Source: Sphingobium sp.
Lineage (GTDB): Bacteria > Pseudomonadota > Alphaproteobacteria > Sphingomonadales > Sphingomonadaceae
Assembly (NCBI GenBank): GCA_020446425.1
Contig: JAGRES010000001.1
Location: forward strand, 1-63,928
Direction of reading: 5' to 3'
Length of the DNA stretch: 63,928 nt
This document shows, one piece after another, positions 2,447-63,638 of the stretch. The position numbers were made by a program, and so were the translations under genes. The notes beneath the pieces were generated by a model. It did no database searches. It saw only the letters and a list, made by a program, of their open reading frames with translations, and had not been told where the DNA came from. Each line of letters begins with the position of its first letter. The first letter of the stretch is position 1.

Positions 2447-2523
2447 TGGTAGCGGAGGAGGGACTCGAACCCCCGACACGCGGATTATGATTCCGCTGCT
2501 CTAACCAGCTGAGCTACTCCGCC
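2447..2523 (-). tRNA. tRNA-Met (anticodon CAT)
   Basis: Read on the minus strand, this is a complete 77-nt cloverleaf. The acceptor arm GGCGGAG pairs with CTCCGCT (the first pair is a G-T wobble), the D arm contains AGCTCAGCTGGTTAGAG, the anticodon stem GCGGA/TCCGC encloses the loop ATCATAA with anticodon CAT, the T arm contains GGTTCGAGT, and CCA is encoded. It is called an elongator methionine tRNA from its resemblance to alphaproteobacterial elongator tRNA-Met; CAT can also belong to tRNA-Ile2 with lysidine, which cannot be excluded by eye. Its 3' end faces the conjugative genes on the left and is the likely integration site. Confidence 0.93.
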
Positions 2524-2746
2524 CCGTGCATGCAGCGGCCGAATTCCGGTCGCGCTACCGTCCAAACAAGGCTCCACACAGGCCACCGCCAATGTGGAAG
2601 GCGCGCTATACGAAGCAGTCTCGCCTTGGTCAACACACCAAATGCGACCCCATGCATTTCGGTCCGGTTTGGCTTTGCCATTGGCCATTAATGCAGTAAG
2701 GCTGCCCGCCCGGATAGAATTCAAAAGGTTGATTAGGGGGATCGGA

Positions 2747-3976
2747 ATGACTGCTTGGGACATACTCATTATTGGGGCAGGCCATGGCGGCGCGCAAGCA
2801 GCCGTCGCGCTGCGCCAAATGGGGTTTGAGGGCAGCATCGCCATGCTGGGCGACGAAAAACAGCTTCCCTATGAACGCCCGCCGCTGTCCAAGGAATATA
2901 TGGCCGGCGACAAGGAGTTTGAGCGTATCCTGATCCGCCCCGCCAAATTCTGGGAGGATCGCAACATCGACATGCTGCTCGGTAAACGGGTTCGCAGCGT
3001 CGATCCCGCCGCCAAGACAGTCCGCACCACAACGGACGAGGAAATCGGCTATGGCAAGCTGATCTGGGCCGCCGGCGGCAGCCCGCGCCCCCTCACCTGC
3101 CCCGGCGGTGACGCCAAGGGCGTCTATTCCGTGCGCAAGAAGGACGATATCGACTCCATATTGGCGCAGCTTACTGCGGTCGATCATGTCGCCGTGATCG
3201 GCGGCGGCTATATCGGCCTGGAAGCCGCGGCGGTGCTGACCAAGCTGGGCAAGAAAGTGACCCTGCTCGAAGCGCTGGACCGCGTGCTGGCGCGTGTGGC
3301 GGGCGAGGAACTGTCGCGCTTTTACGAGGCCGAGCACCGTGCGCATGGCGTCGATCTGCGCACCGGCGCGATGGTCGAGAGCATCGAGACCGAGAATGGC
3401 GCGGCCAAGGCGGTGATCCTGACCGACCAGACCCGCATCGCCGCCGAAATGGTGATCGTCGGCATCGGCATCATCCCCGAAACCGCCCCGCTGATCGCAG
3501 CAGGCGCGAGCGGCACCAACGGCGTCGATGTCGACGAATATTGCCGCACCAGCCTGGACGATATCTATGCCATCGGCGACTGCGCGGCCCATACCAATGT
3601 GCATGCGCGCGGCGACACGATCCGCCTGGAATCCGTGCAGAACGCCAATGATCAGGCCAAGACGGCGGTGCAGCACATCATGGGCGAGGCCAAGCCCTAT
3701 GACGCGCTGCCCTGGTTCTGGTCCAACCAGTATGACCTGAAGCTGCAGACCGTCGGCCTGTCCACCGGCCATGACCAGACCATCGTGCGCGGCGACCCGG
3801 CCAGCCGCAGCTTCTCCGTGCTGTACCTGCTCGACGGCAAGCTGATCGCAGTCGATGCGGTCAACGCAGTGAAGGATTATGTGCAGGCGAAGAACCATAT
3901 CCTCTCCGGCGCGAAGCTGGATCAGGCGCAGCTGGCCGATGCGGACAAGCCACTGAAGGAAGTGGAGCTGGCCTGA
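2747..3976 (+). CDS. FAD-dependent oxidoreductase, ferredoxin/rhodocoxin reductase type
   Basis: 409 residues. An FAD-binding motif IIGAGHGGAQAA lies at the N-terminus, a second dinucleotide fold VIGGGYIGLEAAAVL near residue 150, and the FAD-contacting YAIGDCA near 275, followed by a C-terminal reductase domain. The family passes electrons from NAD(P)H through FAD to a small [2Fe-2S] ferredoxin that serves a P450 or a ring-hydroxylating oxygenase. No such partner gene is nearby, so the substrate system is unknown. The start at 2747 was chosen because an AGGGGG ribosome site precedes it and the dinucleotide fold starts at once; the frame is open 51 codons further upstream, but without family character. 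Confidence 0.87.
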   Translation: MTAWDILIIGAGHGGAQAAVALRQMGFEGSIAMLGDEKQLPYERPPLSKEYMAGDKEFERILIRPAKFWEDRNIDMLLGKRVRSVDPAAKTVRTTTDEEIGYGKLIWAAGGSPRPLTCPGGDAKGVYSVRKKDDIDSILAQLTAVDHVAVIGGGYIGLEAAAVLTKLGKKVTLLEALDRVLARVAGEELSRFYEAEHRAHGVDLRTGAMVESIETENGAAKAVILTDQTRIAAEMVIVGIGIIPETAPLIAAGASGTNGVDVDEYCRTSLDDIYAIGDCAAHTNVHARGDTIRLESVQNANDQAKTAVQHIMGEAKPYDALPWFWSNQYDLKLQTVGLSTGHDQTIVRGDPASRSFSVLYLLDGKLIAVDAVNAVKDYVQAKNHILSGAKLDQAQLADADKPLKEVELA

Positions 3977-5342: not shown

Positions 5343-6971
5343 ATGGCTGGAAAAAACAACACCTCAAATCTTTATTACGTCCAACGTGAACTGATAACCG
5401 GCAGCGTCGTCATCGCTGCCATTGTCATGTTCATATGGACCGGCGGCTCGGCCATGACGGCCGTTGTACGCTACCTGACCGGCGTCGGCCCCAATGTCGA
5501 GCAGATCCTGCTGACCACCCTTCTGCTCAATATTGCGCTCATCCTTTTCGGCTGGCGCCGCTATCGCGACCTGCAGATAGAGGTCCTCCTGCGGCGTGAG
5601 GCCGAAGAACGTGCCAACTCGCTCGCCGAAACTGATTCGCTCACCGGCTTCCTGAACCGCCGCTCGATGGCGGAACGTAGCGCCATGTTGCTCAAAAGCG
5701 CCAAAGCCACGAGCAAGTCGGTGGCGGTCTTCATGCTCGATCTCGATAACTTCAAGAAGATCAACGATATCCATGGCCATGCAGCGGGTGATACTGTTCT
5801 TGCGACCGTCGCAAGCCGGATCAAGGAGCTGATTCCGCCATCGGCTCTGGCCGCGCGTCAGGGTGGCGACGAATTCACCTGCGCTTTTGTTTTCGACCCG
5901 AATTCACCAGAAAACGTTGATCATCTGGCCGAGGAACTGGTGGCTTCAATCGCCAAGCCAATTATCGACAATGGCCTGCACCTTTCCGTCAGCGCATCCA
6001 TTGGCATTGACGCGTCATGTACCGATCGCGAAGCCCTGGACGCGTTGATGCAGCATGCAGATATCGCCATGTATTGCGCCAAGAAAAAGGGGCGTAACTG
6101 CTATATGTGGTTCGATGAGTTGATGGGGCGTGAACTTCATACCCGCAACATGCTGGAGGAAGGCATTCGCCGGGGTATTCCCAACGGCGAATTCGTTCCT
6201 TATTTCGAACCGCAGATAGACCTGTCAAACAATAGCCTGATCGGCTTCGAGGCTCTGGCACGCTGGAATCGGCCGACTCTTGGCGTGATGATGCCGGAAC
6301 GGTTCATACCGATTGCCGAAGAAAGCAACCTGATTACAGATTTGTCGCTGGCGATCATGCAACAGGCTTTTGTTGAGGCCCGGACCTGGAATTCGGCGCT
6401 CACTCTCTCAGTTAACATCTCACCTGCACAATTGATGGACTCTTGGCTGAGCCACAAGATCCAGAAATTGTTGATGGAAACCGGCTTTCCCGCCAACCGG
6501 CTGGAAGTTGAGATTACCGAGAGTGCGTTGTTCGAGAATATTGCTCTTGCTCAAGCGATTGTAGCATCACTCAAGAACCAGAATATTCGCGTTGCGCTCG
6601 ATGAATTTGGCAGCGGATACAGCTCACTTGCACATCTGCGGGCGCTCCCCTTTGACCGGATCAAGATCAGCCGCAGCTTCGTTTCGTCAGTCAACCAAAG
6701 TAACGAGAGCGCGTCGATTGTCGGAGCGATCATCCAGCTGGGTAAAAGCCTCAACCTACCGGTCACGGCAGAGGGTATTGAGGACAGCAAAACCGAGACG
6801 AAATTGCGCGAGATGGGCTGCTCCGCTGGTCAAGGCTGGCATTTCGGGAAACCGATGCCGGCAGACGAAACAGCCCGGATGCTTGCGGATAGAGGCCTCC
6901 TTGTCTCTGCCCCCATGCGAGACGAGGCCTCAGTGGAAGCGTATTCTGGGGGCTGTCGAGAGGCTGGTTGA
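5343..6971 (+). CDS. Membrane-anchored GGDEF-EAL cyclic-di-GMP protein
   Basis: 542 residues. Two hydrophobic segments (about 18-40 and 54-71) are followed by a short helical linker, a GGDEF domain with an intact GGDEF motif at 174-178, and an EAL domain with EAL at 303-305. The family makes c-di-GMP with GGDEF and breaks it with EAL, controlling motility and biofilm. No RxxD inhibitory site precedes GGDEF. In the EAL half the usual DDFGxGYS metal-site motif reads DEFGSGYS (residues 420-427) and KIDRSF reads KISRSF, so phosphodiesterase activity may be altered. The ribosome site is weak, but no better start is seen. It converges with mltG. Confidence 0.9.
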   Translation: MAGKNNTSNLYYVQRELITGSVVIAAIVMFIWTGGSAMTAVVRYLTGVGPNVEQILLTTLLLNIALILFGWRRYRDLQIEVLLRREAEERANSLAETDSLTGFLNRRSMAERSAMLLKSAKATSKSVAVFMLDLDNFKKINDIHGHAAGDTVLATVASRIKELIPPSALAARQGGDEFTCAFVFDPNSPENVDHLAEELVASIAKPIIDNGLHLSVSASIGIDASCTDREALDALMQHADIAMYCAKKKGRNCYMWFDELMGRELHTRNMLEEGIRRGIPNGEFVPYFEPQIDLSNNSLIGFEALARWNRPTLGVMMPERFIPIAEESNLITDLSLAIMQQAFVEARTWNSALTLSVNISPAQLMDSWLSHKIQKLLMETGFPANRLEVEITESALFENIALAQAIVASLKNQNIRVALDEFGSGYSSLAHLRALPFDRIKISRSFVSSVNQSNESASIVGAIIQLGKSLNLPVTAEGIEDSKTETKLREMGCSAGQGWHFGKPMPADETARMLADRGLLVSAPMRDEASVEAYSGGCREAG

Positions 6972-7017
6972 ATATGGGGCGAACCGATGAATAACCGCAA
7001 TGCCGCTCGAAGCCCTC

Positions 7018-7989
7018 TCACATCTCCCCCCGCGCCTTCCTGATCTCGAACCACTTCTTCACGTTCGCGTTGTGCTCTTCCAGTGTGTCAGCGAAGATAT
7101 GCCCGCCCTTTCCGTCCGCCACGAAATAGAGCGCGGAGGTATCAGCGGGGTTGAGCACGGCCTCTATGGATGACAGGCTGGGGTTGGCGATGGGGCCTTT
7201 GGGCAGACCCGCCATCGCATAGGTGTTGTAGTCATTCTTCGCCGCGATCTCTGACCGCTTGATGCGGCGGCCCAGCGGCTTGCCCTTCGTGATCGGGTAG
7301 ATGATCGTCGGGTCGGCCTGAAGCATCATGCCGATGCGCAACCGGTTGGAATAGACGCCCGCCACCGTGGGCCGCTCGGCGGAGATCGCGGTTTCCTTCT
7401 CGACGATGCTGGCGAGCGTGACGGCCTCTTCCTTGCTCTTCACCACCGTGCGCTGTGAACGGTTGGCCCAGGCTTCATCGAGCGCCTTCGTCATCGCCGC
7501 CTGCATGCGCGCCAGCACGTCGGCGCGCGGCTCGCCCTTGTCATAGGCATAGGTGTCGGGCAGCACGCTGCCCTCCGCTGGCACCTCGATTGTGCCTGTG
7601 AGCGGCTCGACCGCCATCAGGCGCTCATACACCAGTATCGACGGCATGCCCTCCGGCACGGTGACGAAGCGGTTGATGCCCACGCCCTCGGTAATGATGC
7701 TGAGGATTTCGCGGTTGCTCGCGCCCTTAGGGATCAGATATTCGCCCGCCTTGATAACGCCCCCGCCCCCCAACAGGCGCGCGCGGGCATAGAAGGTATC
7801 GGCGGAGGATATCAGCCCCTCCTCCTCCAGCAGCGACGCCGTGCTTTTAAGCGTCGCGCCGCCAGGCACGATGAAGGCCGTGTTCTCCTTCGCGGGGCCG
7901 GCGCCCGTCCATCCGTGCAGGAATACACCGCCCGCAATGGCGCCTCCGATCAGGAGCGCCGCCAGCAGGATCAGGATAAAACGGCGCAT
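7018..7989 (-). CDS. mltG: Endolytic murein transglycosylase MltG
   Basis: 323 residues: one N-terminal membrane anchor (about 5-25), a LysM-like segment, and the YceG domain with the catalytic glutamate in ASIVEKET and the conserved LQADPTIIY and YNTY..GLPKGPIANP blocks. MltG cleaves nascent glycan strands at the outer face of the inner membrane and so sets their length. It is the last gene of a run transcribed from fabD through fabF; fabF ends 22 bp upstream. The position next to fabF is common in Proteobacteria. Confidence 0.93.
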   Translation of the reverse strand: MRRFILILLAALLIGGAIAGGVFLHGWTGAGPAKENTAFIVPGGATLKSTASLLEEEGLISSADTFYARARLLGGGGVIKAGEYLIPKGASNREILSIITEGVGINRFVTVPEGMPSILVYERLMAVEPLTGTIEVPAEGSVLPDTYAYDKGEPRADVLARMQAAMTKALDEAWANRSQRTVVKSKEEAVTLASIVEKETAISAERPTVAGVYSNRLRIGMMLQADPTIIYPITKGKPLGRRIKRSEIAAKNDYNTYAMAGLPKGPIANPSLSSIEAVLNPADTSALYFVADGKGGHIFADTLEEHNANVKKWFEIRKARGEM

Positions 7990-8011
7990 CGCGAACGCCC
8001 TATTCTATGGT

Positions 8012-9268
8012 TCAGATCGCCTTCAGGATCAGGCTGGCGTTGGTGCCGCCAAAACCGAAGCTGTTGTTCAGCACCGCACGCACTTCGCGCTTACGCGCTG
8101 TATGCGGCACCAGATCGACACCGTCCGTGCCTTCGTCCGGTGTGTCGAGGTTGAGCGTCGGCGGTACGATCTGGTCACGAATGCTGAGAATGCAGAAGAT
8201 CGCTTCCACCGCACCAGCCCCGCCCAGCAGATGGCCGATGGCGGACTTGGTCGAGCTCATCGACACATTGGCGATCGCGTCGCCGAACAGGCGGCGGACC
8301 GCGCCCAGCTCAATCGTGTCGGCCATGGTCGACGTGCCATGCGCGTTAATATAGTCGATGTCAGCAGGCGTCATCCCGGCCTTTTTCAGCGCGGCGGACA
8401 TGGAGCGGAACGCGCCGTCCATTTCCGGATCAGGCGCGGTGACATGATAGGCATCGCCCGAGAGGCCATAGCCGACGACCTCGGCATAGATTTTCGCGCC
8501 GCGCGCCTTGGCGTGCTCATATTCCTCGAGCACGACGACGCCCGCGCCCTCGCCCATCACAAAGCCCTCGCGGTCCTTGTCATAGGGGCGGCTGGCCTGC
8601 TCGGGCCGGTCGTTGAAGCTGGTGTTGAGCGCGCGCGCCTGCGCGAACCCCGCGATACCGATGGGGCAGATGGTACTTTCCGCGCCGCCCGCCAGCATGA
8701 TGTCGGCATCGTCATCCTTGATCATGCGCGCGGCATCGCCAATGGAGTGCGCGCCGGTCGAGCAGGCGGTGACGACGGCGTGGTTCGGCCCCTTGAGGCC
8801 ATATTTGATCGAAACCTGCCCGGAGATCAGGTTGATGAGGCGCCCGTGGACGAAGTGCGGCGAAACGCGCCCCGGCCCTTTTTCCGCCAGCACAAGGGAT
8901 TCGCTCTCGATGCCCGGCAGGCCGCCAATGCCGGAGCCGATGGAGCAACCGGTGCGCAGCTTGGTCGCTTCGTCCATCTCGGTCAACCCGGCGTCTTCAA
9001 GCGCCTGCCCCGCCGCGTCGATACCGAAGACGATGAACGGATCGACCTGGCGCTGGATCTTATGATCGACGCGCTTGTTGGGATCGAAGCCATATTCATG
9101 ATCGGCGGGTTTTACCTCGCACGCGATCTGGCATTTCTGGTCCGACGCATCGAACTTGGTGATCGGCCCCGCGCCGCTTTTCGACGCGAGAATGTTCTTC
9201 CACGTGGTTTCGACATCGCTACCCAGCGGCGAAACCATGCCAAGGCCCGTTACGACCACACGACGCAT
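8012..9268 (-). CDS. fabF: 3-oxoacyl-ACP synthase II (KAS II)
   Basis: 418 residues, the usual length. It condenses malonyl-ACP with acyl-ACP in fatty-acid elongation. The catalytic triad is visible: Cys169 in TACSTG, His310 in NAHGTST and His346 in SAIGHLLGG, with Lys341. The start is the ATG of MRRVVVTGLG, preceded by GGGAG at good distance; the frame is open upstream to 9349, but those residues are not family-like. It lies 163 bp downstream of acpP on the same strand, the classic acpP-fabF order. Confidence 0.96.
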   Translation of the reverse strand: MRRVVVTGLGMVSPLGSDVETTWKNILASKSGAGPITKFDASDQKCQIACEVKPADHEYGFDPNKRVDHKIQRQVDPFIVFGIDAAGQALEDAGLTEMDEATKLRTGCSIGSGIGGLPGIESESLVLAEKGPGRVSPHFVHGRLINLISGQVSIKYGLKGPNHAVVTACSTGAHSIGDAARMIKDDDADIMLAGGAESTICPIGIAGFAQARALNTSFNDRPEQASRPYDKDREGFVMGEGAGVVVLEEYEHAKARGAKIYAEVVGYGLSGDAYHVTAPDPEMDGAFRSMSAALKKAGMTPADIDYINAHGTSTMADTIELGAVRRLFGDAIANVSMSSTKSAIGHLLGGAGAVEAIFCILSIRDQIVPPTLNLDTPDEGTDGVDLVPHTARKREVRAVLNNSFGFGGTNASLILKAI

Positions 9269-9431
9269 AAACTGCTCCCAATTCCGATGCCGGCCGGAAT
9301 GCTGCTCTGGCCCGGCAAAACCGAAATGGCGGCCTCCATCACGGAACATGCCCCGCGCCGGAAAGCCGCCATCTTAAATCTCGCGACTCAACGCCCGCGC
9401 GCTATGCGCAGGCTCAAAGCCCGGACAGCGC

Positions 9432-9665
9432 TTACTGCTTGCTGTCGATATACGCGATTGCATCCTTGACGGTGCCGATCTTTTCAGCCGCATCGTCGGG
9501 GATTTCGACGCCGAATTCTTCCTCGAACGCCATCACCAGCTCAACGATGTCAAGGCTGTCAGCGCCCAGATCGTCGATGAAGCTTGCATCCTCGGTCACC
9601 TTGTCCGCCTCGACGCCCAGATGCTCGATGACGATTTTCTTTACGCGATCCGCAGTCTCACTCAT
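9432..9665 (-). CDS. acpP: Acyl carrier protein
   Basis: 77 residues, acidic. Ser37 in the DSL motif ([12 protein letters not shown]) takes the 4'-phosphopantetheine arm that carries growing acyl chains. A strong AAGGA ribosome site precedes the ATG. It sits between fabG (126 bp upstream) and fabF, and serves as substrate for all Fab enzymes of this cluster. Confidence 0.97.
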
Positions 9666-9791
9666 GAGTGGTCCTTCTTGATGTTAGTCGATATGAATGA
9701 CGTTAATAATATCAGTCCCGATTTGCCCTAGAGCCATGGCGACCAAGAGGCAAGAGGGGTTTGTTTATTGTTGTTCTTGGCCCGAACCAAA

Positions 9792-10532
9792 TCAGATCAT
9801 CGCCATGCCGCCGTTAACGTGCAGCGTCTGGCCGGTGACATAGCCCGCTTCCTTTGAGGCGAGATATACAGCAGCGGCGGCGATATCGTCACCCTCACCC
9901 AGCGCACCGGCGGGAATCTTGCCCAGAATGGCGTCTTTTTGCGCATCGTTAAGCGCATCCGTCATGGCCGAGCGGATGAAACCGGGCGCAACGCAGTTGA
10001 CGGTGACGCCGCGGCTGGCGAGTTCGGCGGCGAGCGCCTTCGACATGCCGATCAACCCGGCCTTGGACGCGGCATAATTGGCCTGCCCCGGATTGCCGGT
10101 CACGCCTACGACGGATGTCACCGAAATGATGCGGCCAAAGCGCGCCTTCATCATCGGCTTGGCGGCAGCGCGCGCCAAGCGGAAAGCCGCCTCCAGGTTG
10201 ATGCGGATCACATCCTCCCACTCGTCGTCCTTCATGCGCAGGATCAGGTTGTCGCGGGTGACGCCAGCATTGTTGACCAGAATATCGAGCTTGCCGCCCA
10301 GCGCCTCGACCGCCGAGGGCACGAGCGCGTCGACCGCCGCGCTATCCGACAGGTTGCAGGGCAGCTGCACATGATCACCGCCCAGTGAATTGGCGAACGC
10401 GCCGAGCTTCTGCACATTGCTGCCGGACAATGCGAGTGTCGCGCCCTGCGCCGCAAGGCCCTTGGCGATGGCGGAACCGATGCCGCCCGAAGCGCCAGTC
10501 ACCAGCGCGGTCATTCCCGTCAAATCGAACAT
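9792..10532 (-). CDS. fabG: 3-oxoacyl-ACP reductase FabG
   Basis: 246 residues, a short-chain dehydrogenase that reduces 3-oxoacyl-ACP with NADPH. It has the cofactor loop TGASGGIGSA at 12-21, NNAG at 87-90 and the catalytic Ser140, Tyr153 and Lys157 (NYAASK). Two start codons lie 9 bp apart. The downstream ATG (MFDLTGMTALVTG) was chosen because AGGAG sits 9 bases before it, whereas the upstream ATG directly touches that ribosome site. Five bases separate it from the methyltransferase stop codon upstream, so translation is probably coupled. Confidence 0.94.
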   Translation of the reverse strand: MFDLTGMTALVTGASGGIGSAIAKGLAAQGATLALSGSNVQKLGAFANSLGGDHVQLPCNLSDSAAVDALVPSAVEALGGKLDILVNNAGVTRDNLILRMKDDEWEDVIRINLEAAFRLARAAAKPMMKARFGRIISVTSVVGVTGNPGQANYAASKAGLIGMSKALAAELASRGVTVNCVAPGFIRSAMTDALNDAQKDAILGKIPAGALGEGDDIAAAAVYLASKEAGYVTGQTLHVNGGMAMI

Positions 10533-10537
10533 ATATG

Positions 10538-11155
10538 TCATTCTCCTTTAGGCTTGCGCGCCAATATCTGGACAACGGCGCTCATACCATGATGCATTTC
10601 GCTTTCGTTGATTTCCCGGTCGATTTCACGCCCGATGACGATATCCAGCCCAGCCAGCTCATCGCGAAGATCCACCTCGCTCATTAGCAGCTCGATATTG
10701 GGTGGACCACCGGTTCCTCCCATTTCAAGTTGCCTGGGCGTATAGGCTTCGAGCAGAAATGTGCCGCCCGGCTTTAGCGCCCGGACAACGGCTTCGTGCA
10801 CATGCCGCCGCAAAGGCTGGGGCAAATGCGCAAAAATGGCAATGATGGCATCCCAGCGCTGCTCTCCTAAATCATAATCCGCCAGATTGGCGACCTGGAC
10901 AGAGAGGGAAACACCCTCGTCTTCAGCCTGTTTCGCCGCGCGCGCCATACCGACAGACGACTGGTCGACGGCCGTGACATCAAAGCCCTGTCGCGCCAGC
11001 CAGATGGCGTTACGCCCTTGCCCTTCCGCCAGGCACAGGCATTTTCCGTTCGTCAGCGCGCCAACCTGCTCCGCCAGGAAATCATTGGGCTTGTCGCCAT
11101 ATACCAACTTCTCCGCGCCGTAGCGCTCGTCCCAGAATTCTGCATCGAAAGCCAC
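10538..11155 (-). CDS. Class I SAM-dependent methyltransferase
   Basis: 205 residues. The SAM-binding glycine loop is LCLAEGQGRNAIWLARQG (about residues 40-57), followed by the acidic end of strand 2 (VTAVDQSS) and a LKPGGTFLLEAYTP motif. This resembles TehB/UbiE-like small methyltransferases; the substrate is unknown. The start is a GTG preceded by GGGAG with a six-base spacer, just after the fabD stop codon. It is embedded between fabD and fabG, so it is co-expressed with fatty-acid synthesis, but nothing in it shows a direct role there. Confidence 0.8.
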   Translation of the reverse strand: MAFDAEFWDERYGAEKLVYGDKPNDFLAEQVGALTNGKCLCLAEGQGRNAIWLARQGFDVTAVDQSSVGMARAAKQAEDEGVSLSVQVANLADYDLGEQRWDAIIAIFAHLPQPLRRHVHEAVVRALKPGGTFLLEAYTPRQLEMGGTGGPPNIELLMSEVDLRDELAGLDIVIGREIDREINESEMHHGMSAVVQILARKPKGE

Positions 11156-54793: not shown

Positions 54794-54825
54794 TGGTGGG
54801 CGCGGCAAGGATTGAACTTGCGACC
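54794..54825 (-). repeat. tRNA-Val 3'-end fragment, att site copy 1
   Basis: On the minus strand it reads as a T arm (GCAAG-TTCAATC-CTTGC), the acceptor 3' strand CGCGCCC, discriminator A and CCA. It is identical over 32 bp to the start of copy 2 at 56658. No D arm or anticodon arm follows, so it is a fragment left by integration, not a gene. Confidence 0.85.
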
Positions 54826-54951
54826 TTTACCCCAATAGGGTGACGGCATAGCAGGCAATCGTTGAAATAATCGTCGTATTTTCAATGCGATATTGCGATG
54901 AAATGTTTAGCGAACAATTGCCGCAAGGACGGGCAAAGGACGAAGCTTGAT

Positions 54952-55518
54952 TTAGCAGTCTTTTTTGCGCGTTGAACCTAGCCCACGTTTTCCGAACAAC
55001 ACATTTTCAGCAGTCTTCGTCCAACCCGACGCCGAATGCCAAATAGCGGGCTGACCCATGATGAACACGAACTTATCGTCGTCGGTTTGGCGCATAGTGC
55101 CAACGCGAAATTGAGCGCCCACAAGTCGCATCCCTTCAGCTTCTTTGCCGTAGTTCGTCACATCGTCGTCATGCTCGCCTAGCCAATCAGGAAACAGCGC
55201 GACGGCGGGCAACTGCAACCCGTTGTGGAGAGGCAGGCGGGCGTCAGTGATGCGGGACAGCCGATAGTGGATGGCTTGTCGCACGGCGTCGGCAAACTCG
55301 CTCTTGAACAGATGCGACCGTTTGAACTCCCAACCAAACGTCCATCCGGTCGTGCGACACGTTGCCACGGCGTCAATCCGCATAACGTTGCCATCAGCGT
55401 TGATCGCTTCGACTTCTTCGACAAATTCGAAATGCGACGACAGGCGTTGCAGCACTTCGGCGCGGGCTAACGGTTCGGTCGCGTAACGGCGTCGGCTATC
55501 GTCCTTGGACTTTGGCAT
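54952..55518 (-). CDS. Hypothetical protein with PD-(D/E)XK nuclease-like motif
   Basis: 188 residues. The centre carries Asp49 (NVMRIDAV), then Glu64-Phe-Lys66 (FGWEFKRS) 15 residues later, and Gln81-x3-Tyr85 (QAIHYR). This D...ExK...QxxxY layout is that of PD-(D/E)XK nucleases such as the RecB/Cas4 and restriction-enzyme superfamily. No family was recognised by name, and the motif is inferred by eye. It starts six bases after the membrane-protein gene upstream, so the two form an operon. The base composition is less GC-rich than the chromosome. A defence role is possible but unproven. Confidence 0.6.
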   Translation of the reverse strand: MPKSKDDSRRRYATEPLARAEVLQRLSSHFEFVEEVEAINADGNVMRIDAVATCRTTGWTFGWEFKRSHLFKSEFADAVRQAIHYRLSRITDARLPLHNGLQLPAVALFPDWLGEHDDDVTNYGKEAEGMRLVGAQFRVGTMRQTDDDKFVFIMGQPAIWHSASGWTKTAENVLFGKRGLGSTRKKDC

Positions 55519-55523
55519 TTGAT

Positions 55524-56234
55524 CTACGATCTCTTCGTAGTGCCAAACGGTGTATGGGATCGTATGATTGACAACAATTCAGTTTCTATCGTCTGAATAG
55601 CTGCGTTGACGCTGTCACCAACAGTATCTACGCCATTTTCATCTTTGCCTGACCAGATAACTGCTTCAATTTCTAATCGGCGCTGTAACTGCCTTTCCTG
55701 CCCTTCTTCTGTTCGAGCAGGCGGCCGCTTGATGATGTTAGCATAGCTAATTGCGCCTTGAAAAATTCGATACCGCTGCGTCCAAAATTCATCCAAAGCC
55801 TTTTCAATCTCGTTGCCGAAAATCGCTTTTGCAGATGGTAATGTATCGGTTAATTCATCCCAAAGAACTTTATAAGAATCTGACCTCAACAATGCTGCTT
55901 GCGCGGTCGCTAAAATACCCATGTGCTCTATGGGTGTCTGATCATTTATAAGGTTATTCTTATGAAGCTCTGCGTAGACTTCGCTCCGTTCCCCTTCCCA
56001 CATGCTTGGCGAACGAATGCCCTCAATGGCGCGTCGAAGCTTATAGCCTAACGTCAAAACCTGTTCTGCCAATTCGATGCGACGTTCTTCGTTCTTTTGC
56101 CGCCGCCATTGCTTGAATGTGTCGGCCCCCTTGTGGGCAGCATAGACGACCGCGCCCGCGCCCAACAAAGTTGCCCAACCTGACAGCATCGAACCAGTCG
56201 CTGCCCAATCAATTGAACTACATATCGCTATCAC
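55524..56234 (-). CDS. Hypothetical protein with one N-terminal membrane segment
   Basis: 236 residues. A single hydrophobic segment (about 15-35, GWATLLGAGAVVYAAH) is followed directly by a basic, helical stretch (KQWRRQKNEERRIELAEQV) and about 180 helical residues without recognised motifs. This shape is typical of membrane-bound accessory proteins in mobile elements. It is the first gene of a two-gene operon with the nuclease-like protein. Function not recognised. Confidence 0.65.
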   Translation of the reverse strand: MIAICSSIDWAATGSMLSGWATLLGAGAVVYAAHKGADTFKQWRRQKNEERRIELAEQVLTLGYKLRRAIEGIRSPSMWEGERSEVYAELHKNNLINDQTPIEHMGILATAQAALLRSDSYKVLWDELTDTLPSAKAIFGNEIEKALDEFWTQRYRIFQGAISYANIIKRPPARTEEGQERQLQRRLEIEAVIWSGKDENGVDTVGDSVNAAIQTIETELLSIIRSHTPFGTTKRS

Positions 56235-56341
56235 GACGCCCCTTCCAATCGCCCGGTTATTTGTGGTTCACGCCGAATTCTATGACGTGATTCGGGGTGA
56301 ATGCTAAAAGGCAATCTACTCAAATTGTAGGGAGTTGAACC

Positions 56342-56560
56342 TTGAATACCGCGTCTATCATCATTTCTGTTGTAGGGCTTCTTGTCGCTCTTGGCAGCTT
56401 GCTTATCGCTTGGTTGCAATACCGTCGAACACCGAAGCCGCCTGAACCGGCCTATCAACCGTCCGTCGTAGCGTTCGACGTAGTGCCGATGAAGCCCCCC
56501 GGCCTGCCGGGATACTACGGCAAGCACCGAAAAGTGGGCCTAAATCGTAGCGCCGACTAA
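56342..56560 (+). CDS. Possible small single-span membrane protein
   Basis: 72 residues with a TTG start, GGGAG about ten bases upstream. One N-terminal membrane helix (IIISVVGLLVALGSLLIAW) is followed by a short Pro-rich tail. The composition is plausible for a real protein, but there is no family match. It is divergent from the two-gene operon across a 107-bp gap. Confidence 0.4.
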   Translation: MNTASIIISVVGLLVALGSLLIAWLQYRRTPKPPEPAYQPSVVAFDVVPMKPPGLPGYYGKHRKVGLNRSAD

Positions 56561-56657
56561 TTGCGACGCGTCCTTTTCCGGTCCTTGTTTTTGAACCAGC
56601 CTTCCCCGCCAGAAGATCGGATCACCGTCCTAAATTACTGATTTTATGTTATAAAAG

Positions 56658-56708
56658 TGGTGGGCGCGGCAAGGATTGAACTTGCGACCCCACCCGTGTG
56701 AAGGGTAG
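56658..56708 (-). repeat. tRNA-Val(CAC) 3'-half fragment, att site copy 2
   Basis: On the minus strand: anticodon stem TACCC, loop TTCACAC (anticodon CAC), GGGTG, variable GGGTC, T arm GCAAG-TTCAATC-CTTGC, acceptor CGCGCCC, A and CCA. The D arm and 5' acceptor strand are missing, so it is not a functional tRNA. The terminal 32 bp equal copy 1 at 54794. It marks the left attachment site of island B. Confidence 0.88.
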
Positions 56709-56929: not shown

Positions 56930-58183
56930 ATGACCACAGCGCGACGGCCCATTGGTAGACCGGGAAGATTTGCGAGGTTCGAACAATTTGAAGCCGAACT
57001 CTCGAACGGGATGTGCAAGCGACCCCGCTATTTTGACGGCATAGGGCTGTTCAAAGGCGCGAAGGCCAATACGGTATTCGTAAAGATACGCCTGCCTCAC
57101 GGCGGAACCTTCAAAGGCCGGTCCTATGCCAAGGGCGATGCCGTCGAGATTAAGCTTGGCAATAGAAGCTCTTGGACATGGGAAACGCTCATAAAAAGGC
57201 GAGATGAACTGCAAGGACTAGCGGACCGCAATGAGCCGCTGGAAACCGCTGATGTCGAAACCTTCACAGCCTATGCGACGGAATGGCTAGACCGCAAGAA
57301 ACCTACCTTAAAAAGCTATGGCGTCACCAAAGGTAATGTCTCCAGATCATTGACCCCTCATTTCGGATCGAAAAAGCTCGATGCGATCACAACCGGCGAC
57401 GTAAACAAGTGGATCAGCAAACGAAGCGGCAAATGCAAACCGGCCACCGTCCAGCGGGAATTGAACACATTCAAGTCGATCCTGAATGACGCTGTGAGGA
57501 GCGGGATCATCAAGAAAAATCCTGCAGACGGAGCCGAAAAGATACGCGGGATCGAGCCGCGCCAACGCTTTGTAACCGACGAGGAATGGCAGAAAATTTT
57601 GGCTACTGTCGATAGGATTGAAAAGGAGCAGGAAGAGAAGAAGAAACGCACCCCTCACCAAATCAGGGGTTGGCTGCGCCACTATGTCGTATTTGCATAT
57701 AATTCTGGGATGCGCCGTGCCGAGATTTTGAACCTTACATGGGATCGAGTGCGGAAGATCAACGACACAACAACCCAGATTGAAGTGGTCAATACCAAGA
57801 CCAGCAACCCGCGACTCGTCACCTGCACCGATGAGATGAAAACCGTCCTCAAATCTCTCGAAACGCTTGAGCGAGCAGATGGAGATAACCGGCTTTTTCC
57901 TCTTTCCATGACCACCCTGAAACGCTCTCTGACGCGATTGTGGCGCAGCACTGGCCTGAACGATGTTCGGCTACACGATTTGCGCCGTACACACTCTACC
58001 ATCCTTATGGACCGCAATATCGACGCCCGTACGGTGGCTGGTAGACTCGGCCATTCGAACACAAGCACTCTGATTAAATACTATGCCGCCTATCGAGGTG
58101 ATATCGAAGCCGCAAAGGCCTTTGAAACGCCAGAAAAGCCAGCCTCAAAAAGGCGCGGAGCAAGGAAAAAACGGAAAGCGTAG
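56930..58183 (+). CDS. int: Tyrosine-recombinase integrase
   Basis: 417 residues. The N-terminal arm-binding region is followed by a SAM-like core-binding domain (about 108-200) and the catalytic domain with Arg262 (NSGMRRAEILNL), Lys290, His349-x-x-Arg352 (LHDLRRTHST), His375 (GRLGHSN) and the nucleophile Tyr384 or Tyr385. It integrates and excises the island at the tRNA-Val 3' end 220 bp upstream. The basic C-terminal tail (KRRGARKKRK) is an addition. It is adjacent to its excisionase-like partner downstream. Confidence 0.94.
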   Translation: MTTARRPIGRPGRFARFEQFEAELSNGMCKRPRYFDGIGLFKGAKANTVFVKIRLPHGGTFKGRSYAKGDAVEIKLGNRSSWTWETLIKRRDELQGLADRNEPLETADVETFTAYATEWLDRKKPTLKSYGVTKGNVSRSLTPHFGSKKLDAITTGDVNKWISKRSGKCKPATVQRELNTFKSILNDAVRSGIIKKNPADGAEKIRGIEPRQRFVTDEEWQKILATVDRIEKEQEEKKKRTPHQIRGWLRHYVVFAYNSGMRRAEILNLTWDRVRKINDTTTQIEVVNTKTSNPRLVTCTDEMKTVLKSLETLERADGDNRLFPLSMTTLKRSLTRLWRSTGLNDVRLHDLRRTHSTILMDRNIDARTVAGRLGHSNTSTLIKYYAAYRGDIEAAKAFETPEKPASKRRGARKKRKA

Positions 58184-58422: not shown

Positions 58423-58620
58423 ATGAATTCCTCTATGTTTCTCAGTGACAGGGATGTCGCTCGCCTACTGAATTTATCTGCCTCGTGGGTACGAGCTCAA
58501 CGCTACAAACAAGCTCATGGCCTTCCCCACATCTTCGACGTGAAACCGCGTTATATCGGTACATGCGCCCGGTACGTCACCAGTGAGGTTGAAGCCTTCA
58601 TTGCAAAGCTGATCGGGTGA
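58423..58620 (+). CDS. AlpA/excisionase-like DNA-binding protein
   Basis: 65 residues. A winged helix-turn-helix of the AlpA/MerR type (SDRDVARLLNLSASWVRAQR, then HGLPHIFDVKPRYIG with the wing) fills the protein. Such proteins act as recombination directionality factors or as regulators of integrase. The ATG at 58423 has AAGG upstream. The palm-domain gene begins six bases after its stop codon, so they share a transcript. Confidence 0.78.
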   Translation: MNSSMFLSDRDVARLLNLSASWVRAQRYKQAHGLPHIFDVKPRYIGTCARYVTSEVEAFIAKLIG

Positions 58621-58626
58621 AGCGCC

Positions 58627-60012
58627 ATGAAAACCAATAAAACTCCTGATCCCGGCTCGGGAACTTTCTTCGATGAATATGTGGACTTGCGTGATCCGGA
58701 AGGGACCATCCTTACGAAACTCATAATGGAATATTACGACAAGGTGCGTCCAACAAAGCGAAAGCGACACAGGAAAACCTTGGAATTCCGAATTCGCAGA
58801 CTCGCAGCGAACGCCTTACGGGCATATTATTTCCGTGATTGTCCCGCCGTTCTCTTCATCGCCAAAGCGGACGCCGAGCAGCAGGCGAACAAGCCCGGAT
58901 GGATGAGACATGGGGCATTGGGAAAGCTGGTCAGACCTCTAGCTAACGCCAAGCTATTTCATAGGATTAGGGGCAAAAAGATGCCCTGGAATTCCAATCA
59001 AGCGTCGTGGGCATCATCCTATTGGGCAACGAAAACGCTGCTCCGAATGGCTTTGCAATCAGGAGTCCGGAAAGAGTCAATATACCGGCCAATTCCCCTC
59101 GATGAGCTTGTCCAGCTCTATGCGCCAAAACCAAATGCCAAATTCGACACGATGAAGGGAGAATTCATCCATCCTGCCAAGGGGAAGCGAATTTGGTTTG
59201 ATCCGACGCCAGAAACGAAGGAATGGACAGCGACATTGGAAGCTATCAATGTCCACTATCGGCAACAAACAATCGCTCTGGGATTAACTCCCGCCGAACT
59301 GGAAGCGTGGCTGGCCAAACGCAACGCCGATCCCGACCGAAAGGGCGCACCTTACCGCCTGCCAGAGATGTTCTCGACGGACATCCGCAGGATATTCAAC
59401 AATGGAGACGAAGCCAATCCAAGGTTTGATGAAGGCGGCAGGTTGTTCGGCGGGTGGTGGATGCACATCCCGGAGGAACTGCGTGAGGCGATCACCATCA
59501 ACGGCGAGAAAACGGTAGAAATCGACTATTCGCATTGTCATCCCCGGATGCTCTATCATCAGCGCGATCTGAACGGAGAAGGCGAGCTATACATATTGCC
59601 TGAAATAACGGCCTATGAGGCTGAAACAGGGGTAGAGCCAGGCACATACCGGCCATATGTAAAATGGCTGATGCAGGTGCTGATAAACGGTAAAAGACGA
59701 CCCGCAGCCGTCATGCCGCCATCAAAGATTGCAACGCCTCCTGATTTGTCGATCCATCAAGTCGTTGATTTCATCAAAGCACGACACGAACCGATTGCCG
59801 ATACGTTTGGGACAGGAGCGGGCCTCGGCTTAATGCGCTTAGAGTCGGACATTGCCTTGGAAATTATCTCAACTGCGATGACCGAAGGCTGGACCGTTCT
59901 ATCCGTGCACGACTCCTTCATCACAACAATCGACAATCAAGACCGGCTGAAATCGTTGATGATTGATGCCTATGTTCGGAGACTGGGAAGAGAACCAGTC
60001 TTCAAGGAGTAA
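58627..60012 (+). CDS. Uncharacterised protein with polymerase-like palm motifs
   Basis: 461 residues, not recognised as a named family. The C-terminal half carries an ordered set of motifs like family A DNA polymerases and single-subunit RNA polymerases: motif A Asp300 in VEIDYSHCHPRMLYH, a motif-B-like helix YVKWLMQVLING (Lys346), ESDIALEIISTAM before motif C, and motif C His428-Asp429 in VLSVHDSFITTID. The N-terminal half (1-270) is helical and basic, with no 3'-5' exonuclease motifs. It is co-transcribed with the excisionase and integrase, which suggests a replication or primer-making role for the excised island. The start ATG lies six bases after the previous gene. Confidence 0.7.
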   Translation: MKTNKTPDPGSGTFFDEYVDLRDPEGTILTKLIMEYYDKVRPTKRKRHRKTLEFRIRRLAANALRAYYFRDCPAVLFIAKADAEQQANKPGWMRHGALGKLVRPLANAKLFHRIRGKKMPWNSNQASWASSYWATKTLLRMALQSGVRKESIYRPIPLDELVQLYAPKPNAKFDTMKGEFIHPAKGKRIWFDPTPETKEWTATLEAINVHYRQQTIALGLTPAELEAWLAKRNADPDRKGAPYRLPEMFSTDIRRIFNNGDEANPRFDEGGRLFGGWWMHIPEELREAITINGEKTVEIDYSHCHPRMLYHQRDLNGEGELYILPEITAYEAETGVEPGTYRPYVKWLMQVLINGKRRPAAVMPPSKIATPPDLSIHQVVDFIKARHEPIADTFGTGAGLGLMRLESDIALEIISTAMTEGWTVLSVHDSFITTIDNQDRLKSLMIDAYVRRLGREPVFKE

Positions 60013-60090: not shown

Positions 60091-60471
60091 TCATAAGGAA
60101 ACAGGAGGCGAAAGGCTGCGCTTCAAAGCCTCCAAGTTCCGCCCCGTCCAGTAAGTGACCAAACTTGATCCAAGGGTCAGTGCAAATACCGCTGGCAGCA
60201 TTATCCACGTTCCATGATAAACGATGACACAGAGCCAAGGGAATACGAGCAGGCCAGCAAGCCACGCAACAGCATGTACGGCCCTCAGAAGCATCTCTCC
60301 CAATACTCTGGCCAGTTGTTCCGCCTTACGATTGGCTTGACCCGGATTTGTATCCTCAATGGCTTTTGCACGAGCGTTGCATCTGTCGAATAGCGATCCC
60401 AGCAAGGTCACTTGACCGATAAAAAGCGTCAACACCATCAAGCCACCAAAGAATATCGACAGCGCAGACAC
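60091..60471 (-). CDS. Small integral membrane protein
   Basis: 126 residues, GTG start one base after the stop codon of the ClpP-like gene. Three hydrophobic segments (about 5-25, 63-85 and 88-108) with a charged stretch (FDRCNARAKAIEDTN) between the first two. No family recognised. Translation is coupled to the ClpP-like protein, so the pair likely acts together at the membrane. Confidence 0.65.
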   Translation of the reverse strand: MSALSIFFGGLMVLTLFIGQVTLLGSLFDRCNARAKAIEDTNPGQANRKAEQLARVLGEMLLRAVHAVAWLAGLLVFPWLCVIVYHGTWIMLPAVFALTLGSSLVTYWTGRNLEALKRSLSPPVSL

Positions 60472-60472
60472 T

Positions 60473-61513
60473 TCAGCTACAAACTCTGTCGAGCAGCATC
60501 TTCTCTGCTGTTCCGGGCCGGATCGGTCGAGGTTGAGAACTTACAGCCTCGCTGCCTATTTTTCCGTCTTTGTAGTGATCTTCCCAAATTTCCACATATT
60601 CGGTGAAATTCGTGCAATTCAAATGCCATAGGACTAAGCTGTATTGCCTCTTGTCCTCCTGATTTTTCCAATCGACTAATACCCAAACATTCCGGGCTGA
60701 TCCGCCACGAGTATCAATCGACCTACGTACAGAGTTTGCATCGTAATAGGCATTGTTGACATACTTGGCCCATTGCTCGCCGGTCATAGACAGTTTGGAT
60801 GGTAGATATTCAGGCAGCGCCACTGCCTTTGGCGGAGCAAGCCGCACGATTGGTAAGGGAACCGGCTGAGGTTTCGGGTGGGTAGCTATCACGGGAGCCA
60901 CTGTTTGCCCATCATTTTGGCGCTCCTCAGCTTTGATCTCGTCCACGTCGAAATCATCAAAGTCTATACCTGCCGATGCTTTGTTGGCACTCGTCAGCCA
61001 AAGAATTTTATCAGGGGAAGCTCGCGTCGCGAATACAACCGCCCTTTCCGGCAGGTTCAACAACGTCAAATAGCTGCCAATCAAGGCATTGGCCGTACCG
61101 GACTCCTCCAACCTGCCGTTATTGTCGCGATAGCTGGCGTGAAAGCCGACACGCCCATTCGGGGATAACAACCGAGTTTCACCAGCCACCCAAATGAGAG
61201 CGCATGACGATGCACATACGGCCTCATCAGGAACAACCGTTATATATCGAGCAATCTTGATGATCTTTCCTATTTCGATAGCAGGTAAAAGCGAACCGCC
61301 GTTGCTGGAAAGGATGACAACAGCCCTCTTATATTTGATCGAAAATTCCCTGAATTTCTGGGCATCTGACGACTTGATTTCACCCACAACCATTATGCCT
61401 TCAATGTCATCGACGATTGTACGATGTGTGATCTCCGCTGCCCGAGTAGTACCGGCAGCCATGAGAGAATATAAAGATAAGGTCGCCAAAATCAGTCGAT
61501 AAGCGTTCGTCAT
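60473..61513 (-). CDS. Exported ClpP-like serine protease-fold protein
   Basis: 346 residues. A signal peptide (LILATLSLYSLMAAGTTRAA) is followed by a ClpP/crotonase-type fold (about 30-170): SSNGGSLLPAIEIG (oxyanion site), Ser102 in CASSCALIWVAG and His125 in GFHASY, as in periplasmic ClpP-like proteins of the COG3904 type. A linker rich in Pro (about 200-240) and a C-terminal domain of about 100 residues with conserved Trp/Cys follow. AGGG precedes the chosen ATG. The substrate is unknown. It forms an operon with the small membrane protein. Confidence 0.75.
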   Translation of the reverse strand: MTNAYRLILATLSLYSLMAAGTTRAAEITHRTIVDDIEGIMVVGEIKSSDAQKFREFSIKYKRAVVILSSNGGSLLPAIEIGKIIKIARYITVVPDEAVCASSCALIWVAGETRLLSPNGRVGFHASYRDNNGRLEESGTANALIGSYLTLLNLPERAVVFATRASPDKILWLTSANKASAGIDFDDFDVDEIKAEERQNDGQTVAPVIATHPKPQPVPLPIVRLAPPKAVALPEYLPSKLSMTGEQWAKYVNNAYYDANSVRRSIDTRGGSARNVWVLVDWKNQEDKRQYSLVLWHLNCTNFTEYVEIWEDHYKDGKIGSEAVSSQPRPIRPGTAEKMLLDRVCS

Positions 61514-61626
61514 TGCTATTTGCCCTGTCGTGATGGACGCAGAGCCGAAATTTAGTCGGGAGACGTTAAAAAAGAGATACAAACGCCCGTGGACTGATAG
61601 TCATCCTTTACGGCCTAACATGGCCG

Positions 61627-61857
61627 ATGGAAGACAAGGCAATTCTCAAAGAACTGGGGCGCAGAATTCGCGCACAGCGTAAGGGCATTGGCTTGACCCA
61701 GGAACAGCTTGCGCTGGTCGCCAATGTTGATCGGTCCTATTTCGGTGCCGTGGAGCGCGGAGAGAGAAACGTAACTTTCACTGTGCTCTGTCGGCTCTGT
61801 GTCGCTCTGCAATGCGATGTGGCAAAACTGACGGATAAGTTACCATGTACGGCTTGA
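61627..61857 (+). CDS. XRE-family transcriptional regulator
   Basis: 76 residues, a single Cro/C1-type helix-turn-helix (LTQEQLALVANVDRSYFGAVE, with RNVTFTVLCRLCVALQC). It resembles small regulators of restriction-modification or mobile-element genes. It is divergent from the ClpP-like gene across a 113-bp gap and convergent with the TIR operon, so it probably controls its own promoter and the divergent one. Confidence 0.85.
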   Translation: MEDKAILKELGRRIRAQRKGIGLTQEQLALVANVDRSYFGAVERGERNVTFTVLCRLCVALQCDVAKLTDKLPCTA

Positions 61858-61911: not shown

Positions 61912-62745
61912 TTAACGCGAGAATGCGTCGCGGTCCTCTGCCCACTGTATGAGTTGATTTGTTATCGTGATAGGGCGATGGTCTATCAGATTTTCCAATG
62001 CTTCTAGGCGTTGCATGAGGCCGTCTTTAATTTTCAATTCTATTGAAAAATTGCCTTTTAGCTTTTCTTTTGCCGTTCGAGCCAAGATCAATATGTTTCG
62101 TGCAATATTTTCTGATCTGGATCGCTCGAATAGATTGTCCTCCGCACTAATGATGGAGCGAAGCGTTTCATGAGACTTATTCCAGCCATCCAAATCGGTA
62201 ACGGGATTTCCAAATCTGGCGCTCAAGCTTTTTATCGCGTCCGCCTTGGCCGACTCAATGGATTGCCTCACGCCAGAAGCGAGTGGTGAACAGAGATCGA
62301 AAATGAACACACTTTCCACCTCGTGCTTCAAATCCGAAAAGTCTATTTGCTGGCCTAACTCGCTATGTCGCCCCTCAAGCTCATGGAGCAAGTCCCATCT
62401 TTTTTGCCAGCTTTCCGTTCCACCCCACCTTCCGCGCATTACGTTGTTCATTACAATCTCGCGGGTATAAACTGTGACTACGCTCTTTAAGCGGTCAATC
62501 AAATTCGCAGCTTCCTTCTGCTTGTCCTCCCAGAGTTCAGCTTCAAACCCTAAGCCCTTGAATTTCTTAAACCTAGCGAGATTGGAATAGAAAAAACTGA
62601 AGAACGACATGGCGAATACTGCCGACGCCGACGTAATTTGCCCAGACCATAGGAAAACGAATGTGAATCCCAAGCAAACTGCGCCGACGCATCCAAAGAG
62701 CATACGTTCCCAGCGATTTTGAACGTATGTCCAAAGTCCTTTCAT
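61912..62745 (-). CDS. Two-TM membrane protein downstream of the TIR gene
   Basis: 277 residues. Two membrane helices (about 14-33 and 38-56) joined by a short loop are followed by about 215 cytoplasmic helical residues starting GLGFEAELWEDKQKEA. No enzyme motif is seen. Its start overlaps the TIR gene stop codon by four bases (ATGA), so the two are translated together. A membrane-disrupting effector or a membrane anchor for the TIR protein are both possible; this is inferred from position. Confidence 0.7.
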   Translation of the reverse strand: MKGLWTYVQNRWERMLFGCVGAVCLGFTFVFLWSGQITSASAVFAMSFFSFFYSNLARFKKFKGLGFEAELWEDKQKEAANLIDRLKSVVTVYTREIVMNNVMRGRWGGTESWQKRWDLLHELEGRHSELGQQIDFSDLKHEVESVFIFDLCSPLASGVRQSIESAKADAIKSLSARFGNPVTDLDGWNKSHETLRSIISAEDNLFERSRSENIARNILILARTAKEKLKGNFSIELKIKDGLMQRLEALENLIDHRPITITNQLIQWAEDRDAFSR

Positions 62746-63638
62746 GCGCGCATTACCTTGTTCCAGTCGATCACCTGACCGGCCGCTTCCAGTTCCCTAC
62801 CTAGCCGAGACTTCCACCCTCCGGCTCCATCCATATCTTCCCAAACTACGCCAGCGAAGTCGCTTGGAATTACAACCTCGCCCCGCTTGAGGGCGCAGAC
62901 TCGCTCTCTCCCAAGCTTGGCAATGAAATAGCCAAGTTCCAGTAGCACGTTTTGGCGGGCGCGAGGCTCAAGCTCTGTAGCATTCTCGGCGCGACCAACA
63001 TCATCGGGCGTTAGCAGGACAACCGCAAAGCCAACATCGCTGTGGCCTTCAACCTTCTCGATGACAGTTCGGCCTTTGTTTGGCTGTTCATGCAATATGA
63101 TCGGTTCGAAACCGATGATGCTGAGAAAGCGAGCAACCGTCTCCCGCGCTTCACCATCGTGGCCGTGAACGATAAAAACCTTCCGTGATGTCGGACGCAC
63201 CAACCTTGGCTCATTATCGCCCTGACTAAGAACATAGGCCTTATAGTCTCGCACAAAAGGCATAATCAGGGATCGGTTCATGCCGTGAAAGCCCGCAATA
63301 ACCTTGCGGCTACTACCTGCATAATATGCATGACTGAACTGAAACGCGAAGCCGCTGTCAGGCCCTCCCAATTTGCGGACGATAAGAAGCCGTAGGGCCA
63401 AATCTTCACGAGAGTCCTCGGGCCATTGCAATTCGCCAAAGCCATTGTTGGCTTGCTCACTTGCTTGTAGAAATGCTTCGACATCCACACCATCGGTCAA
63501 CGTCTGATTAATTGCCTCAAGGTCAGGATGGTTAAGCAGCCTAGAAAGTTGCTTCAATGGACGTTCAACGCCCTGATAGTCAGCCGCCTGGAGGTCTAGG
63601 ACAGCATTGTTAATTTGCTCAAACAGGTCCACAGCCAT
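62742..63638 (-). CDS. TIR-domain protein of the CAP12/PycTIR type (PF10137-like)
   Basis: 298 residues. The N-terminal part (about 1-145) is an uncharacterised helical domain; the C-terminal part (152-270) is a TIR-like nucleotide-binding domain: KVFIVHGHDGEARETVARFL, then PNKGRTVIEKVE, VVLLTPDDVGR, and RARQNVLLELGYF with the candidate catalytic Glu234. Related domains in CBASS, Pycsar and Thoeris-like systems degrade NAD+ on activation and cause abortive infection. It has no cyclase or STING partner here. It is flanked by overlapping genes on both sides (TAATG upstream, ATGA downstream), a single operon. Confidence 0.85.
   Translation of the reverse strand: MAVDLFEQINNAVLDLQAADYQGVERPLKQLSRLLNHPDLEAINQTLTDGVDVEAFLQASEQANNGFGELQWPEDSREDLALRLLIVRKLGGPDSGFAFQFSHAYYAGSSRKVIAGFHGMNRSLIMPFVRDYKAYVLSQGDNEPRLVRPTSRKVFIVHGHDGEARETVARFLSIIGFEPIILHEQPNKGRTVIEKVEGHSDVGFAVVLLTPDDVGRAENATELEPRARQNVLLELGYFIAKLGRERVCALKRGEVVIPSDFAGVVWEDMDGAGGWKSRLGRELEAAGQVIDWNKVMRA

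Follow-up and report, generated by a model that had tools for sequence, protein, structure and literature searches.

The gene pol of the window (the whole 63,928-nucleotide stretch of Sphingobium sp. DNA that was analysed) encodes a family-A-type polymerase and lies inside a small element integrated at a tRNA-Val gene. Judged by profile comparison, its product is a homologue of divPolA2, and it is probably a TV-Pol. We think it fairly likely that pol is the element's replication gene, a primase or primase-polymerase that would make DNA on the excised circle. The kind of protein is not new, having been described as TV-Pol in 2008 and as divPolA2 in 2024, and TV-Pols were already reported beside lambda-type integrases in the first of these papers (PMC2579912). 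The addition made here is the genetic context: a small tRNA-integrating element with the order int–xis–pol–cargo. A search of the open-licence literature showed no earlier placement of divPolA2 in elements integrated at tRNA genes.

The element (Table 1) runs in the order integrase (int), excisionase-like gene (xis), pol, cargo, C1-type regulator, TIR operon and tRNA. An earlier note on this DNA had set pol in an integrating element, six bases after an excisionase gene. Both points are borne out, the first by the integrase, the xis-like gene and the att repeats and the second by the gap between the stop codon of the HTH gene and the start of pol (6 nt, 58621–58626); the two genes may be co-transcribed. 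The excisionase itself is a candidate, with an HTH_17 match below the Pfam cut-off (E = 5e-4) and a PHROG excisionase/regulator match at E = 0.012. In the TIR operon, the TIR gene product carries a CAP12/Pycsar-type TIR domain (PF10137, E = 2.3e-38; PADLOC PDC-S35, E = 7.4e-71) and is a candidate anti-phage effector.

The intact tRNA-Val(CAC) is outside the window, on another contig of the assembly (C24:16976–17050), 439 nt from the contig end. That end overlaps the end of the window contig exactly, over 127 nt. The element is therefore very likely whole, with a length of 7,583 bp that depends on this assembly overlap. A search for an empty site found a tRNA in the approximately 1.5 kb beside the left-flank gene in 0 of 19 genus loci; the left-flank gene is present in the genus. 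Next to the element, a 32-nt copy of the tRNA-Val end (54794–54825) bounds a further 1.86-kb unit with two genes and no integrase (54794–56706), which may be a remnant or may have been moved by its neighbour's integrase.

Table 1. Positions in the window of the element's features and of the parts of pol.
Feature	Position	Strand	Evidence or conservation
att copy, integrase end; exact 49-nt reverse complement of the tRNA-Val(CAC) 3' part	56658..56706	.	
Tyrosine integrase, 417 aa (int)	56930..58183	+	Pfam Phage_integrase, E 5.7e-19
Small HTH protein, AlpA/Xis-like excisionase candidate (xis); alternative TTG start 58399	58423..58620	+	
Family-A-type polymerase gene, divPolA2 homologue, probable TV-Pol, 461 aa (pol)	58627..60012	+	
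pol N-terminal domain, about residues 1–190; at best winged-helix-like, not significant	58627..59196	+	
Two predicted helices (195–212, 222–233) at the place of a minimal thumb	59209..59325	+	AlphaFold model
Arg272 of the GGR hairpin	59440..59442	+	21/21 in A1
Motif A, Asp300 (EIDYSHCHPR)	59524..59526	+	21/21 in A1; 132/133 in larger set
Motif B, R342xxxK346, in the fingers	59650..59664	+	Lys 21/21, Arg 20/21 in A1
Motif C, His428-Asp429 (SVHDSF)	59908..59913	+	each 21/21 in A1
Pair of cargo genes, products of 126 aa and of 369 aa (C-terminus Adhesin_E-like)	60091..61582	-	
C1-type HTH regulator	61627..61857	+	HTH_31, E 1.7e-12
Three cargo genes including TIR gene 62742–63638, candidate anti-phage operon	61912..63922	-	

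Conserved residues and family

The translation agrees with the earlier note, which had read a 461-aa open reading frame with motif A, a motif-B-like helix and motif C at the residues given in Table 1. Lys346 sits in YVKWLMQVLING and forms an RxxxK motif with Arg342. Conservation was assessed in an alignment, A1, of 21 sequences including the window pol, which came from a whole-protein search and were not selected on motifs (the 22 order-wide matches minus one truncated sequence, L010). Glu298 is invariant in A1 together with Arg272, Asp300, Lys346, His428 and Asp429, and Arg342 is found in 20 of 21. The three residues whose conservation the note had made its test, Asp300, Lys346 and Asp429, are thus fixed among these homologues, and chance motifs were rejected because the catalytic residues are invariant. 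A larger set of 133 sequences retained Asp300 in 132, Lys346 in 133, Arg342 in 130, Arg272 in 133, His428 in 132 and Asp429 in 131, the counts for Arg272, His428 and Asp429 not being independent, since the set was partly gathered by the patterns GGRxYGGWW and HDSF. Column 320, which holds Asp in 126 of the 133 and Glu in the window pol, is presumably the conserved fingers Asp of the TV-Pol paper (PMC2579912).

No Pfam family scored over its cut-off against pol, and no exonuclease domain was recognised by Pfam, as the note had proposed; NCBIfam and PADLOC gave no match. PHROG 4756, a family of unknown function, matches residues 265–455 (E = 6.4e-29).

Of 186 frames searched with the A1 HMM, AUR84708, the 430-aa representative of divPolA2, scores E = 3.7e-33 (HMM positions 63–450). 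The two proteins are homologous across the N-terminal region and the palm, with the palm conserved and the exonuclease absent in both. They differ at motif C, which reads Phe-Asp-Glu in AUR84708 and His-Asp-Ser in the window pol, and in setting, since divPolA2 was described in phages, whereas the window pol lies in a tRNA-integrated chromosomal element with an integrase (PMC11348598). As described there (Yutin et al. 2024), divPolA2 has an N-terminal domain of unknown type, its structure best matches DNA and RNA polymerases, and a homologous thumb was not found by its describers. Barbaviruses carry it alongside a regular PolB, in variable neighbourhoods, and the describers suggest repair or RNA synthesis while leaving the function open (PMC11348598).

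TV-Pols (Iyer et al. 2008) are 400–600 residues long, a subset having an extra N-terminal domain (PMC2579912). The earlier note's statement that pol is shorter than known members does not hold against this range or the length of AUR84708. Pol has the TV-Pol hairpin Arg (Arg272), the palm with two catalytic Asp and the fingers RxxxK, and where TV-Pols have a reduced two-helix coiled-coil thumb the pol model predicts the two helices of Table 1. TV-PolN was predicted to be all-helical (PMC2579912), whereas the N-terminal domain of the pol model has strands too. When Ma-LMM01 (150 kb) was searched, gp030, which is beside a transposase, was the best of 504 frames, with weak values from two HMMs (E = 0.029 and 0.16); we infer that gp030 is the TV-Pol member of the 2008 paper. 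CCPol of SCCmec was assigned to the TV-Pol group in the same work (PMC2579912).

Predicted fold and the link to family A

AlphaFold2 supplied with A1 gave a confident model of pol (mean pLDDT 90.9, pTM 0.89). Foldseek against the PDB returned 492 matches at E ≤ 10, nine of them at E ≤ 0.001. The 50 listed matches of the 492 consist entirely of family-A DNA polymerases and mitochondrial RNA polymerases, the family-A rows including Pol theta and the apicoplast polymerase, and the top match is 1xwl, a DNA polymerase I (E = 7.4e-5). The model thus supports the family-A-like fold that the earlier note had proposed, in the sense of a shared core and not of a full fold match, because the Foldseek TM-scores are low (approximately 0.2–0.35). 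A viral structure library yielded Aeromonas phage proteins (E = 2e-21), a Rheinheimera phage Barba31A 'DNA polymerase' (E = 5.8e-19) and, at E = 1.7e-4, the DNA replication protein of Zamilon virus, a relative of Sputnik.

Sequence comparisons alone tie pol to family A weakly. The pol profile had no match at E ≤ 10 among PDB sequences, and hhalign against 24 PolA sequences gave a probability of 2.4% (P = 0.019; P = 0.017 with T7 gp5 added), all four landmarks (Arg hairpin, motif A, RxxxK, motif C) being aligned in register. The hhalign value against T7 RNA polymerase was P = 0.031, over 34 columns and motif C only, and that of an integrase control was P = 0.26. A DNA polymerase I fragment was rejected, there being no PF00476 match in pol and no DNA_pol_A in the 21 members; in the own genome, only the host PolA (C11:13849–14982) matches PF00476. 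A T7-type RNA polymerase by family was likewise rejected (PF00940, RNA_pol: E = 0.11, 11.7 bits v a cut-off of 22). The alignment to PolA places the Klenow steric-gate Glu in the His305 column (His in 108/133; 14/21 in A1) and the O-helix Tyr in the Asn354 column (Asn in 120/133; 12/21 in A1). The Klenow Glu acts as a steric gate, and T7 RNA polymerase has Gly at this place.

Residues 1–200 are predicted with confidence (pLDDT 87.7) and have strands besides helices. A fold search with the N-terminal domain gave nothing at E ≤ 0.001; its best row was an unrelated plant immune complex (E = 0.14), and weaker rows comprised winged-helix proteins, the plasmid initiator RepE54 and T7 RNA polymerase (E = 0.46). 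Since no fold match is significant, origin binding by this domain is a guess. Pfam matches to the N-terminal domains were spread over seven families with one member each, and the best of them, VirE2 (E = 0.0034), was judged to be chance.

These comparisons make it unlikely that pol is a single-subunit RNA polymerase, with the task of transcribing the element or of supplying RNA as a primer or regulator. The top structural match is to a DNA polymerase I, the His of the steric-gate column is bulky where T7 RNA polymerase has Gly, and the N-terminal domain lacks a significant match to RNA polymerase promoter-binding domains, the T7 row included. The points on the other side are that the best structural matches include mitochondrial RNA polymerases (6ymv, E = 6.8e-4; 3spa, E = 8.0e-4), that the aligned motif C stretch corresponds to IHDSF of T7 RNA polymerase, and that the same idea has been put forward for divPolA2 (PMC11348598).

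Relatives and their elements

The whole-protein search found pol homologues in 22 of 296 genomes of the order and in 6 of 61 genomes of the genus, the own genome being counted in both and one false positive of both searches, GroEL (G211/L023), being rejected and removed. The distribution is patchy. Phage records gave 27 matches, all annotated as hypothetical except one without annotation, and plasmids gave three. Scans with a 10-sequence alignment identified 312 relatives among 353 pattern matches in genome contigs, of which 80 were kept, and a scan of the same kind identified 36 relatives among 77 pattern matches in viral contigs; viral contigs scanned with a single protein yielded nothing useful. 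The nearest homologue (G368, 65% identity) has int upstream and a C1-type regulator downstream and is near a tRNA-Phe. Several rearranged or multiple copies were seen. In the genus member G358 (L208, approximately 7111–10158) the pol frame is split by an inserted gene, presumably an IS1380-type transposase, and the integrase open reading frame is still there. One viral contig (L136) bears three tandem pol paralogues (1849–3117, 6508–7776 and 9855–11096) and 514-nt direct repeats, and L038, L063 and L093 have two pol copies each.

Exact direct repeats bracket pol in 35 of 126 loci, the minimum length being 16 nt where ARAGORN called a tRNA and 25 nt elsewhere; some of these repeats, at just 17–18 nt, could be chance. 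The repeat overlaps a tRNA in 28 of the 35, L094 and L145 being one element seen twice. L136, one of the seven non-tRNA loci, is a repeat-rich viral contig and not an att pair. Repeats of 38–105 nt lie off recognised tRNAs in four others (L036, L044, L047 and L064), which suggests another target gene; these are Polynucleobacter or other beta-proteobacterial copies, and in L053, also Polynucleobacter, the repeat overlaps tRNA-Arg.

All 17 annotated elements among the bracketed loci contain an integrase, detected with an HMM built by iteration from the window integrase, and the smallest are 4.8–5.3 kb long. Their 87 other open reading frames (at least 70 aa) were scanned for known Pfam families at E ≤ 0.001 in two halves (23 families over 43 frames and 21 families over 44), and no family of replication helicases, primases, Rep proteins or DNA polymerases was among those matched. 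The scan recognised five resolvases, HTH, HNH, methylases, Vsr, GmrSD, MrcB, TIR and transposase. The sole polymerase-type extra was a single RVT_1 frame that also has a maturase domain of group II introns, and the sole ATPases were ResIII and one AAA_22/ATPase_2 ORF set. The PADLOC matches listed (25 of 171 families) include type II and type III restriction-modification and RmrA. Part of the elements' cargo is, by such matches, anti-phage. The cargo also includes ADDT and aGPT-Pplase3 genes and a thymidylate-synthase match. ADDT and aGPT-Pplase3 act in thymine hypermodification and are usually phage-borne.

The earlier note had asked whether homologues always neighbour an integrase and an excisionase. 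Integrase proximity proved common and not universal: among 56 distinct genome pols with flanks of at least 5 kb, an integrase lies within 5 kb in 42 (<1 kb in 23, 1–2.5 kb in 14 and 2.5–5 kb in 5) and is absent in 14. Across 44 loci with 7-kb flanks, integrases per successive kb numbered 16, 8, 7, 4, 1, 5 and 3; in viral contigs, one of 16 loci had an integrase within 5 kb. The excisionase part fared worse, as homologues of the window xis adjoin only six distinct pol genes (L024–L149 and the window searched), namely those of the window, L140, L141 (= L024), L142, L143 (= L029) and L025. In these, xis is directly upstream of pol, and int is 431–468 nt upstream of pol in five of the six, the integrase of L142 being 1,017 nt downstream. 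The int–xis–pol order is thus special to a sphingomonad clade. Homologues of the C1-type regulator lie downstream of pol in L140, L141 (= L024), L142, L025 and L149, and weakly in L026 and L027; L207 has one by eye and L143/L029 none.

TV-Pol elements carry a lambda-type integrase, a resolvase or a transposase, and many are in alphaproteobacteria (PMC2579912). The present elements are of this type, with the integrase upstream of pol in the window and Resolvase in 5 of the 87 other open reading frames of the 17 relatives' elements. The alternative TV-Pol arrangement, a C-terminal D5 helicase, was found neither fused to pol nor in the sampled elements.

The same neighbourhoods bear on a repair or gap-filling DNA polymerase, which would serve integration, excision intermediates or transfer and not copy number. 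Pol is indeed found among recombinase genes, but tyrosine recombinases require no fill-in synthesis, and apart from the RVT_1 of group II intron type the 17 sampled elements yielded no recognisable polymerase but pol. Repair has also been suggested for divPolA2, whose barbavirus copy adjoins a regular polymerase (PMC11348598); for the window pol we hold it to be improbable. That pol itself belongs to the defence cargo, perhaps as a polymerase triggered by phage in the manner of reverse-transcriptase defence systems, is very improbable, for although the elements bear restriction-modification, TIR and GmrSD-type genes, PADLOC did not match pol, which stays constant while cargo varies, is present in elements of approximately 5 kb with little cargo, and is directly abutted by xis in the close clade.

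Role in the element

We therefore return to pol as the probable replication gene of its element. Of the roles that the earlier note had offered, replicase, primase or transcriptase, we favour that of a primase-polymerase. The xis-like protein would turn the integrase towards excision at the tRNA-Val att sites, releasing a circle that the polymerase from the adjoining gene would engage via its N-terminal domain. The two-metal site of Asp300 and Asp429 would then synthesise DNA on the circle, pol acting as a primase or primase-polymerase and host enzymes doing the bulk synthesis if needed. The circle, with its anti-phage cargo, could then reintegrate or move on. Pol would need host help, because the sampled elements yielded no helicase gene. 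We know of no enzyme activity for a close relative of pol.

Related systems offer precedents. TV-Pols were predicted from context to be primase-polymerases (PMC2579912). Like pol, CCPol is a family-A, exonuclease-free enzyme of a chromosomal mobile element with a site-specific recombinase and has a proposed role in replication; unlike pol, it has an OB-fold partner, MP, and a helicase, and it lacks the N-terminal domain (PMC7581432, PMC10061031). CCPol extends primers with dNTPs, reportedly not using NTPs, and makes DNA primers de novo only with MP (PMC7581432). PICMI satellites resemble the window element in their size of approximately 6 kb, their integrase, AlpA-type HTH regulator and single replication gene, and also in anti-phage cargo and a specific integration site (PMC10803314). 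Their primase belongs to other families (DUF3987/DUF5906), unlike pol, and its deletion (prim) led to fewer circular copies (PMC10803314). A further difference from PICMI is that neither a helper phage nor a packaging signal is known for the window element.

A broader and more tentative reading is that divPolA2 and TV-Pol are single-protein initiator-primase-polymerases, in which a winged-helix-like N-terminal domain would pick the origin of the tRNA-integrated circle and the family-A site would start DNA without an element helicase or a separate primase. They might then mark a large class of satellite-like elements, spread across Proteobacteria, that replicate and carry defence genes, and lytic phages would have acquired the gene from these.

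A polymerase family whose function is debated in print, as repair or RNA polymerase in the case of divPolA2, now has a genetic setting. Excision and copy-number assays can address the question, since many of the elements are compact (approximately 5–12 kb) and have borders defined by repeats. Should the replication role be confirmed, pol would provide a second family-A priming route beside CCPol–MP, possibly one that is partner-free, and widespread defence-carrying islands would gain a replication mechanism.
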